NCBI GenBank assembly: GCA_937989665.1
Contig: CALKRN010000011.1
Coordinates: 1-64,000, forward strand
Origin: an uncultured Desulfomicrobiaceae bacterium
Lineage (GTDB): Bacteria; Desulfobacterota; Desulfovibrionia; Desulfovibrionales; Desulfomicrobiaceae
Reading direction: 5' to 3'
Length of the DNA: 64,000 nt
Numbering within the stretch: the first letter of the stretch is position 1; every line of letters begins with the position of its first letter. The notes below the pieces were generated by a model that did not search any database, was not told where the DNA came from, and saw only the letters and a program-made list of their open reading frames with translations. Made by a program: the position numbers and the translations under genes. This document shows positions 16,691-32,091 of this stretch, piece after piece.

Positions 16691-17614
16691 TTAGCTCGCA
16701 AAGGCCTTTTCAAAGTTCGGCACGACCTGTTTCTTGCGGGACATAACCCCGGGCAGCCAGGCACGGCCGTTTTGAGGTTTGACGCCAAATGCCTTCTCTA
16801 CCACGGATTCATCGTCCGAGACAATGAGCATTTCCGAGCCTTCTTTCATGATATCCGTCAGGAGCAGGAACACCGAATGGTTGCCCTTCTCTTCCTTCAG
16901 TTTCTTAATGTCGGCCTCGAGATCCGCCTTCACAGCATCGAGGATGGAGAGGTCCACGACTTCCAACTGGCCGATGCCAACCATCTTGCCGCTCATGTTG
17001 AAGTCTTTGTAGTCCCGCATGACGAGGTCACGGGCCGGTGTGCCCTCCACCGCGGACTTGACCTTGAACATAGCCAGACCCAGAGCGTTGAGGTCGGTCT
17101 CGCCAGCGATCTTGGCCAGGGCTTCGGCGGCCTTTTTGTCCGTATCCGTGCAGGTGGCGGATTTGAAGATAACGGTATCGCTTAGGATGGAGCACAACAT
17201 GATGCCGGCAATGGGCTTAGGAATCTCCACTCCATAGAAATCATACATCGATTTGATGACCGTGGCGGTACAGCCCACTGGCCAAATCCAACATTCCAGC
17301 GGATTGGGGGTGGTGACATCACCCAGTTTGTGGTGGTCGACAATGCCGAGGATCTCCGCCTGCTTGATGTCATCGGGCAGTTGGGTGAGGTCTGACGTGT
17401 CCACTAAAAAGACCTTCTCGCCGGCAAAAGAGGTCTTGATAGTCGGGGCAGGGACACCAAATTTTTCGAGGATGAACTTGGTCTCAGGATTGAGCTCGCC
17501 CAAAGCCGCAGGGGTGCAGGGCAGGCCAAGTTTGGTTTTGAGATCGGCCAGGGCGATGGCGCTGCAGACGGTATCGGAATCAGGACTCTTGTGGCCAAAC
17601 ACATACACGGACAT
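16691..17614 (-). CDS. ppaC: manganese-dependent inorganic pyrophosphatase
   Basis: This family II (DHH-type) pyrophosphatase hydrolyses PPi to phosphate. The 307-residue protein has the metal ligands H8, D12 and D14 in GHKSPDSD, D75 in VDTSD, and the DHH motif at 93-95 (VDHHKLGD), followed by a DHHA2-type C-terminal domain. The ATG at 17614 has ggaggagg upstream; 26 extra in-frame residues further upstream do not resemble the family. Many sulfate reducers use this soluble enzyme to pull sulfate activation, but that role here is inference. Confidence 0.95.
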   Translation of the reverse strand: MSVYVFGHKSPDSDTVCSAIALADLKTKLGLPCTPAALGELNPETKFILEKFGVPAPTIKTSFAGEKVFLVDTSDLTQLPDDIKQAEILGIVDHHKLGDVTTPNPLECWIWPVGCTATVIKSMYDFYGVEIPKPIAGIMLCSILSDTVIFKSATCTDTDKKAAEALAKIAGETDLNALGLAMFKVKSAVEGTPARDLVMRDYKDFNMSGKMVGIGQLEVVDLSILDAVKADLEADIKKLKEEKGNHSVFLLLTDIMKEGSEMLIVSDDESVVEKAFGVKPQNGRAWLPGVMSRKKQVVPNFEKAFAS

Positions 17615-17680
17615 GGGGTTTCCTCCTCCAAGGTTTGGGATTGGTGTGGAATTAGTCCACGACTTTGTTCTAAATATCAC

Positions 17681-17740: not shown

Positions 17741-18420
17741 TCATGGTCCTGCAAGATGGAGGAAAGCCAACGCCATAAGGGTGGCGGCGGCAGTGGCGAT
17801 GGCGCGGCGGGTGCGAAGGGAGAGCACGCCGCCCACCAAGGCTGGGGCAAGGAGGGCTGGCCACACAAGGGGGGTATGGGGGAGGGGGAGATGGGAGGTC
17901 AGGAGGACCCCTACGCGTAGGAGCTGGGCGAAGCCCACAAAGAGGAGCCATCCAATGACCCATTGCTCGGTCACGGCCCGAAGAACCAACGCGTCTGGGC
18001 TGAATTTTGAGAGCTGAGAGCGCCAATTGGCCTTGGTGAGACGCATGAGGATGCGGTCTTGGCGCTTACGATAGAGGAGCTCGAGGTTAGCGGCGCCATG
18101 GCCGCAGAGGGCGGCTCCTATCAAGATGAGCGTGGTGACGAGGTGCGTTGGCTCTGGTACTTGGGCCAGGGTCACGATGGCAAGACAGGTGGCGAGAAGA
18201 CTGTTAGGCGGGAGATACGCCCCAGCAGGGAAAAGGTCGAGCCAAAGGAGTTCAAAAAAGATGCCTATCCCAATGGCGTGAGTATCTTTGCTGAGTAGTG
18301 CCCAAAGGAGTGCCGCCGTTGCGGGACGGTGCAGGAGTGTGGTGTCGATGCAAAAGCGCGAAAGATTGAGGAGGGCAAAAAAAAAGCGCCGACAACCACC
18401 TCGAAGGATCCGATTACCAT
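17741..18420 (-). CDS. mannose-family PTS EIIC component, interrupted by a T9 frameshift
   Basis: The reading frame from about 18382 to 17741 encodes a hydrophobic protein with EIIC-Man features (RFCIDTTLLHRP, then GIGIFFELLWLDLFPAGAYLPP split by no stop). It has no start codon of its own near the N-terminus. An ATG at 18420, overlapping the EIIB stop, reads MVIGSFEVVVGAFF in another frame. It joins the EIIC frame only if one extra T is read in a run of nine T (18377-18385); without that it stops after about 50 codons. With slippage the protein is about 226 residues, near normal for EIIC. No EIID follows. A decayed gene or a sequencing homopolymer error is equally possible. Confidence 0.75.
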
Positions 18421-18881
18421 AGATGCACCGTTACAGATTTGGTCGGGACACAGCGAAAGTCCAATGTTATCCCTTGTTCATGGAGGAAGACCAAACAGGA
18501 ATGTTCCTCCTCAGTGAGGCAAATATGGGCACAAACTTGGAACTTGCCCGGCCCATCATGGAGATTGCCGATGTTGACGCTCTCGATGGCACAGCCGCTG
18601 GTGTAGGCTAGTCGGGCATCGGCACAGGAGGCAAAGAGGACCATGATACGGGCCTCGGGATTGCGGTGCTCAATGTCTGCAAGCACAGGGGCCAGTTCGG
18701 TTATCGAGCAGCAGAGGAAGTCCACGTCGTCCGGGATAGCCAAGCGCATGATTTCTTGACGTAAGGGGTCGGCCGCCAGGGCATCATTGGCCACAAGGAG
18801 CATCGTGGCGCCAATATAAGGCATCCAGGCTTCAATGACCTGACCGTGGACGAGGCGATTGTCGATGCGAAACCAGCGCAT
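18414..18881 (-). CDS. PTS system mannose/sorbose-family EIIB component
   Basis: The 155-residue protein begins MRWFRIDNRLVHGQV, with the phosphorylated histidine at position 12. EIIB takes phosphate from EIIA and passes it to the sugar bound by EIIC/EIID. Its first base is shared with the stop of the EIIA gene, and its stop overlaps the EIIC start, so the three are tightly coupled. With no intact EIIC and no EIID nearby, a regulatory use of the phosphate relay is plausible. Confidence 0.9.
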   Translation of the reverse strand: MRWFRIDNRLVHGQVIEAWMPYIGATMLLVANDALAADPLRQEIMRLAIPDDVDFLCCSITELAPVLADIEHRNPEARIMVLFASCADARLAYTSGCAIESVNIGNLHDGPGKFQVCAHICLTEEEHSCLVFLHEQGITLDFRCVPTKSVTVHLW

Positions 18882-19288
18882 TATTCTCCCACCTTGCGCC
18901 GCAGGACTTCTCCGGCCACCAATATCCCTTGTTTACCAGCGGACTTTGCTTCCAAAGCAACTTGGTTGAGGTTGCCGCTGCGGTTGGTGAGGACCTTCAG
19001 CAAAAGGGGCAGATTGACGCCAGAGATGACCTCGACCTTGCCCTGCAAGAGGAGCGAAAGACTGAGGTTGGACGGTGTGCCGCCAAACATATCCGTGAGG
19101 ATGAGCACCCCGTTGCCGTGGTCAAGACGGCGGGCTTGGGTCTTGATGTCGTCTAGGATGGCATCCATGGAGCGGGACTCATCCACAGCGACCACGGCAC
19201 AGCCCTCTTGAGGACCGAGGATAGTCTGGGCCGCGTCCAATAAGTATTGCCCAAAAAGACCATGGGTGACGAGAAGCACACCGATCAT
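18881..19288 (-). CDS. PTS system mannose-family EIIA component
   Basis: The 135-residue protein has the EIIA-Man fold signature, with the phospho-histidine at position 9 (VTHG) and the LTDMFGGTPSN segment. It receives phosphate from HPr. It lies 70 bases downstream of rapZ in the rpoN-hpf-ptsN-rapZ block. This arrangement is known from Desulfovibrio-type genomes and from other proteobacteria where the PTS is mainly regulatory. No HPr or enzyme I gene lies in the window. Confidence 0.92.
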   Translation of the reverse strand: MIGVLLVTHGLFGQYLLDAAQTILGPQEGCAVVAVDESRSMDAILDDIKTQARRLDHGNGVLILTDMFGGTPSNLSLSLLLQGKVEVISGVNLPLLLKVLTNRSGNLNQVALEAKSAGKQGILVAGEVLRRKVGE

Positions 19289-20236: not shown

Positions 20237-20689
20237 TTAAATGGGGTAGGTAGCGATAAGGTCCGCCAATTGATCCGCTGGGGCATCGAGAAAGGCTTGG
20301 CGGAAGCCCGGGTCGCGGAAGAGTCGGGCGAGGGCCGCCAGGAGCTTGAGGTGCAGGCCCGCGCCTCCTGCGGGAGCGAGCACGAGGGCGATCATGTGCA
20401 CGGGCCGACCGTCAAGGCTGGCAAAATCCACCCCAGCGTGGCTGCGGCCGACCGCCACAAGCATCTGATTAAGCCCGGCCACCTTGCCATGGGGGATGGC
20501 CACGCCATCGCCAATGGCGGTACTCCCGAGACGCTCGCGCTCAAGAAGGACACTGAGGACCTCGTGGGAATCGAGCAGAGGGTATTGGGCAACAATTCGC
20601 CCCACGAGTTCGGCCAGGACCTCGGTTTTGGTCCCGGCCGTCAACTCGGGGACGATACGATCTGGATGGAGAAATGCCCTGAGGTCCAT
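20237..20689 (-). CDS. ptsN: nitrogen-regulatory PTS EIIA (EIIA-Ntr)
   Basis: The 150-residue protein has the fructose-type EIIA fold and the active histidine at 67 in AIPHGK. EIIA-Ntr does not transport sugar; it is phosphorylated through PTS-Ntr and regulates potassium, nitrogen and stress functions. It sits 3 bases from hpf and 5 from rapZ, the classical rpoN-hpf-ptsN-rapZ order. Confidence 0.94.
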   Translation of the reverse strand: MDLRAFLHPDRIVPELTAGTKTEVLAELVGRIVAQYPLLDSHEVLSVLLERERLGSTAIGDGVAIPHGKVAGLNQMLVAVGRSHAGVDFASLDGRPVHMIALVLAPAGGAGLHLKLLAALARLFRDPGFRQAFLDAPADQLADLIATYPI

Positions 20690-31944: not shown

Positions 31945-32091
31945 GACTCGCTCCCCCTGTCGATAGGAATTTTGCCCAAAAAACCAGGAAAAAAAAACAA
32001 TATCTAGGAAATATTCCTTGTCATGGACAAAAAAGAAAACTCCGCACGGGAGACGGGACCTCTGAGGAAGTGGAGTTCTGGGAAGGAGAGT

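Follow-up and report, generated by a model that had tools for sequence, protein, structure and literature searches.

We analyzed a 64,000-nucleotide stretch of contig 11 (the window) from a metagenome-derived genome of an uncultured Desulfomicrobiaceae bacterium, an assembly of 2.13 Mb in 26 contigs that is 85.7% complete. The minus strand of the window encodes, in this order, the PTS components EIIA, EIIB and EIIC, followed by a DHH/DHHA2 phosphatase. All features relevant here lie on this strand:

20237–20689, minus strand: upstream PTS EIIA-2, ptsN-like (PF00359, E 1.1e-28)
18881–19288, minus strand: PTS EIIA, mannose family (PF03610, E 5.1e-22)
18414–18881, minus strand: PTS EIIB, sorbose/mannose family (PF03830, E 1.9e-40), its stop codon overlapping the EIIC start
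18265–18420, minus strand: zero-frame ORF of 51 codons, its ATG overlapping the EIIB stop; 14 codons correspond to the first half of EIIC transmembrane helix 1, followed by an unconserved tail of 37 codons and a stop
18377–18385, minus strand: putative slippage site of nine T, minus-strand letters TTTTTTTTT, followed by G (a run of A on the window strand)
17741–18379, minus strand: EIIC body, mannose/sorbose-family PTS IIC, in the −1 frame relative to the ATG and entered solely via the nine-T run
16691–17617, minus strand: DHH/DHHA2 protein (PF01368 and PF02833), the next gene downstream

The downstream gene probably codes for a manganese-dependent inorganic pyrophosphatase (putative ppaC). 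The ptsN-like EIIA-2 gene clusters with rapZ-, hpf- and rpoN-like ORFs, neighbors which we named by inspection from the ORF order. Genes for EIID and enzyme I (EI) adjoin each other on contig 6 of the same genome (172413–175029), apart from the EIIA-EIIB-EIIC genes. The mannose-family PTS hence has its EII parts and EI, distributed over two loci.

The EIIB reading frame ends with ...CTA TGG TAA and overlaps an ATG at 18420–18418. From this ATG, translation reads 14 codons, MVIGSFEVVVGAFF, into the run of nine T, continues with LPSS... and stops after 51 codons if nothing slips. The EIIC frame, in contrast, lies at −1 relative to the ATG frame, i.e., it runs from 18379 (FALLNLSRF...) over 212 amino acids and is open to 17741. 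Reading of the minus strand thus bore out the original prediction that the ATG overlapping the EIIB stop leads 14 codons into the run, and that one extra T is needed to enter the EIIC frame, a product of about 50 codons being made otherwise. Likewise, the EIIC frame has no usable start near its N-terminus, as had been stated: we found no ATG, GTG or TTG between its upstream stop codon and the nine-T run. The first in-frame start past the run in the window is a GTG, and its use would lose the conserved FFELLWLDLFPAGTFIPP motif. The predicted −1 slippery pattern is present as well, since GCU UUU UUU holds U_UUU_UUU in the zero frame.

Next to this junction, we found both frames to behave as coding sequence. 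Upstream of the run, third codon positions in the zero frame take up the largest share of the substitutions among related loci (113.5:78.8:32.6), and downstream of it third codon positions in the EIIC frame do so (1626:815:465). Over the 12 codons before the run, a stop codon occurs in the zero frame at just one of 139 loci, compared with 26 loci for the EIIC frame and 58 for the third frame. The mean Kyte-Doolittle hydropathy of the same 12 codons is +1.16 in the zero frame versus −0.36 in the EIIC frame. An AlphaFold2 model of a naturally continuous orthologue (L042; pLDDT 87.1, pTM 0.83) has a single helix at residues 4–26, with the junction residues 15–17 in mid-helix. From the coding constraint, the hydrophobic zero-frame peptide and the helix across the junction, we conclude that transmembrane helix 1 has its first half encoded in the zero frame.

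The PF03609 profile (EII-Sor) matched the window fragment weakly (E 8.5e-5; 22.5 bits, under the cut-off of 26.3) and was matched by 29 of 34 family members, with a best E of 4.4e-15. In a Foldseek search with the L042 model, man-PTS structures filled the first eleven rows, the nearest with a probability of 1.00 at moderate TM-scores of 0.50–0.58, and a profile search of PDB sequences returned mannose EIIC chains (best E 3.5e-4). By profile match, fold and its partners EIIA, EIIB, EIID and EI, the gene is a mannose/sorbose-family PTS EIIC.

Of 348 genomes belonging to the order Desulfovibrionales, we located EIIC in 252. After de-duplication, 170 loci with the N-terminal region present remained; some counts refer to a set of 139 nine-T loci. 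A search at class level gained nothing beyond the order, as the class held Desulfovibrionales alone. Comparison of the run length in relatives, the check proposed with the original prediction, showed that 158 of the 170 distinct orthologues have a run of exactly nine T and an EIIC frame displaced in the same direction, and in 157 of the 170 the run ends at the same codon; these loci share descent, i.e., the counts are not counts of independent events. The arrangement extends over six families and 37 of 38 sampled genera, and a further sample of 30 genomes from 19 genera mostly carried nine T. Among the 139 loci with the run at the same codon, all nine T positions are invariant (139/139) and the next base is G in 138. 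A zero-frame start lies upstream of the run at 138 of these 139 loci and at 157 of 158 in the full set. The zero-frame tail past the run varies between 1 and 76 codons among relatives, the short zero-frame product is hence probably a by-product. At five loci, a stop codon of the EIIC frame directly precedes the run.

In other Desulfobacterota families, we found 25 orthologues that are in frame, with a normal start about 10–24 codons upstream and no run. The split gene therefore looks like an innovation of the Desulfovibrionales. We infer from these sequences that the device would have a single origin in the ancestor of the order, with few lineages having gone back to a continuous frame.

The exceptions were inspected individually. 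Nine loci are in frame without nine T: six have a continuous EIIC and have lost the run (L029, L047, L073, L191, L247 and L266), and three are in frame, yet have kept eight T (L019, L254 and L272). One locus (L061 in genome G072, the same locus as L173) has kept nine T and has EIIC in frame via an extra A before the run. At this locus (L061:3001–3414) we also observed an open frame of about 650 codons, as though EIIC and the PTS genes upstream of it had become one gene. Ten-T runs occur at two loci in all. In Salidesulfovibrio brasiliensis (L087), the gene is in frame with ten T. The other locus (L262) stems from a single-contig genome (G314) and has a second frame break at model positions 22–33, near G7 and T8 homopolymers; it looks like decay or a homopolymer error in the assembly. 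Finally, one locus (L265 in G181) has nine T in a different codon phase and still requires the same one-base shift; it is an independent re-phasing of the nine-T site.

Long A/T runs are rare in this genome, with about ten separate runs of at least nine in 2.13 Mb. In 349 kb of sequence from relatives, 47 of 53 A9/T9 runs are the EIIC junction and six lie elsewhere. Given this rarity, and as 157 of 170 distinct orthologues carry the run at the same codon, the split at the run exceeds what chance would give. When we read the ORFs around the remaining runs of the same genome (seven regions), a second out-of-frame A/T run of at least nine was not evident. Two of these runs are apparently in frame within genes (L280 and L282), and the others apparently intergenic or outside likely genes. 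One of the former (L282:1485; G000 contig 15, 86184) is a nine-T run in frame within a gene of about 450 codons for a predicted membrane protein, which slippage would truncate. The sole other A/T nine-run in the window, nine A at 31989–31997, lies between ORFs.

Since the full protein can arise solely via a slip, be it of the polymerase or the ribosome, the apparent error would be a built-in device of gene expression. We consider it quite likely that EIIC is a programmed-recoding gene and that its synthesis would depend on obligatory RNA polymerase slippage at the nine-T run, of the type found in Shigella mxiE. Translation would start at the ATG overlapping the EIIB stop, and the zero frame would provide the N-terminal half of transmembrane helix 1. 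At the run, RNA polymerase would add one U, or drop two, in a fraction of the transcripts. In such slipped transcripts, the zero frame would continue into EIIC to give ...VVGAFFFALLNLSRF..., and unslipped transcripts would yield a short dead-end peptide. Slippage may in this way keep the amount of EIIC at a fixed, minor share of the EIIA and EIIB level, a putative stoichiometric role. At known sites (mxiE, mxiA, spa33 and tssM), slippage efficiency is 15–30% (PMC4256274). According to PMC1088944, selection against slippage becomes visible in many bacteria once an A/T run reaches nine. The EIIC junction has two of the features expected of a transcriptional slippage gene, an A/T run of at least about nine, and conservation of the run and the split frames under selection.

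The shift could also be made by the ribosome. Slippery −1 heptamers of the U_UUU_UUU kind are used in some bacterial genes, and in GCU UUU UUU UUG this heptamer, of the form X_XXY_YYZ in the zero frame, stands in the right phase. A programmed −1 ribosomal frameshift would here lead to exactly FFFALL and give nearly the same EIIC protein with the polymerase uninvolved. This is the main alternative, and we regard it as rather unlikely on several grounds. Constraint is not limited to the heptamer: the eighth and ninth T are invariant (139/139) though they lie outside of it, and the ninth is a synonymous Phe wobble base. Elsewhere in the same genes, TTT makes up 52% of Phe codons, and about 36% in loci with more than 60% G+C. 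Moreover, none of the 170 orthologues is out of frame with just seven or eight T, which again favors transcription over translation. A stimulatory RNA structure, sought among pseudoknot-free folds of the 60 nt downstream of the run, was not conserved, and this region is less structured than other EIIC windows (mean −11.3 versus −14.0 kcal/mol). An SD-like element upstream of the run was present in only 15 of 139 loci and was not conserved; the weak downstream structure and the scarcity of this element both point to the polymerase. In E. coli, heptamers without a stimulator shift at most about tenfold above a background of 0.055% (PMC4066793), and U_UUU_UUU ranks among the less shifty heptamers (PMC5009743). 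Most continuous orthologues, finally, lack the run, as would be expected if it is kept for slippage. At odds with the slippage reading, nine T persist at L061, and eight T at L019, L254 and L272, where EIIC is already in frame. The sequence evidence hence favors RNA polymerase as the slipping machine, and a mixed mechanism of polymerase and ribosome is possible, as U_UUU_UUU also fits a −1 site.

Homopolymer runs are typical contingency loci, and the original prediction had offered a phase-variable switch, in which run length would differ between cells and toggle EIIC on and off. The ten-T runs of S. brasiliensis and G314 are what such a switch could produce. However, 158 loci stand at nine T, the OFF length, versus two at ten, where a switching locus would give many ON lengths; the former of the ten-T loci seems to have reverted permanently to a single frame, and the latter has a second break. 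ON/OFF variation of the run length among related genomes, with a mix of eight, nine and ten T, was absent, and we hence judge phase variation very improbable.

We give even less credit to decay of EIIC into a pseudogene, or to its independent initiation in its own frame. An ATG, GTG or TTG does occur upstream in the EIIC frame at 44 of 157 nine-T loci, but the other 113 have no such codon, and in the window use of the next GTG would cost the protein its conserved motif. Against decay, which the original prediction had also considered, relatives keep one run length, the EIIC frame downstream is open with a third-position substitution bias throughout the order, and FFELLWLDLFPAGTFIPP is nearly invariant.

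A homopolymer error in a single metagenome-derived genome, the plainest of the earlier suggestions and a natural one as homopolymers are prone to sequencing error and the assembly is in 26 contigs at 85.7% completeness, is practically negligible, for the identical nine T recur in 158 distinct loci, including isolates (Nitratidesulfovibrio oxamicus NCIMB 9442, N. liaohensis XJ01, Halodesulfovibrio spirochaetisodalis JC271, Pseudodesulfovibrio pelocollis SB368 and Desulfovibrio sp. A2) and single-contig genomes (G002, G009, G012, G013, G096 and others). The order-wide conservation of the split, in isolates and closed genomes alike, speaks against error and decay together. What stands of the original prediction is the slippage or frameshift device: its programmed recoding is strongly supported by this conservation, with the polymerase apparently favored over the ribosome.

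Polymerase slippage at EIIC would resemble several known systems. In Shigella flexneri mxiE, slippage at a U run adds one nucleotide and fuses mxiEa and mxiEb (PMC1088944) with an efficiency of 20–30% (PMC4256274). In both genes a U run, with an extra nucleotide in some transcripts as proposed here for EIIC, links a pair of overlapping ORFs, and the long product is the functional one. In contrast to EIIC, a chromosomal transporter subunit found order-wide with its junction inside the first membrane helix, mxiE is a plasmid-borne regulator of one lineage. Thermus thermophilus dnaX, with slippage at nine A, shares with EIIC the nine-base A/T run in a chromosomal housekeeping gene; there, however, the in-frame product is long and slippage gives the short subunit (PMC1088944), whereas here slippage would be required for the sole product that contains the EIIC body. 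In Citrobacter rodentium tssM1, slippage restores a membrane-protein frame broken after a homopolymer (PMC4256274), as would be the case in EIIC, but the tssM1 run is eleven A long, lies close to the 3′ end and occurs in one species, where both products are required. Genes with −1 ribosomal frameshifting, i.e., E. coli dnaX and IS3-family elements, share the shift direction and the slippery heptamer with EIIC; unlike EIIC, where we found none, they depend on stimulators such as structure or an SD-like element.

To our knowledge, few chromosomal, non-mobile bacterial genes have a main product that depends on programmed slippage. Those in the literature we examined are limited to one or few species, compared with the order-wide EIIC. 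A search of the open literature for Desulfovibrio together with slippage, frameshifting and PTS found no report of slippage at EIIC, and a term search of the main texts of the reviews and genome-wide surveys PMC3711429, PMC5009743 and PMC1088944 did not return the gene. Clade-wide EIIC slippage thus provisionally appears unreported in the open literature; the mechanism class itself is known. Judged by the sequence comparisons, the EIIC site is a real case of clade-wide programmed recoding, with an unusually wide spread for a chromosomal gene of the housekeeping type. With more than 150 natural nine-T alleles and about ten that have naturally gone back to a single frame, it makes the length rule of slippage directly testable.

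In annotations of Desulfovibrionales genomes, EIIC likely figures as a truncated or start-less gene or as a pseudogene, and the PTS of sulfate reducers may therefore have been judged incomplete. As a more speculative reading, which we hold to be doubtful, slippage efficiency might respond to polymerase speed or UTP level and so tune the EIIC:EIIB ratio or sense the cell state through it, as an obligatory device of the whole clade. If this were true, the sugar or regulatory PTS in sulfate reducers would be controlled through the fidelity of RNA polymerase.
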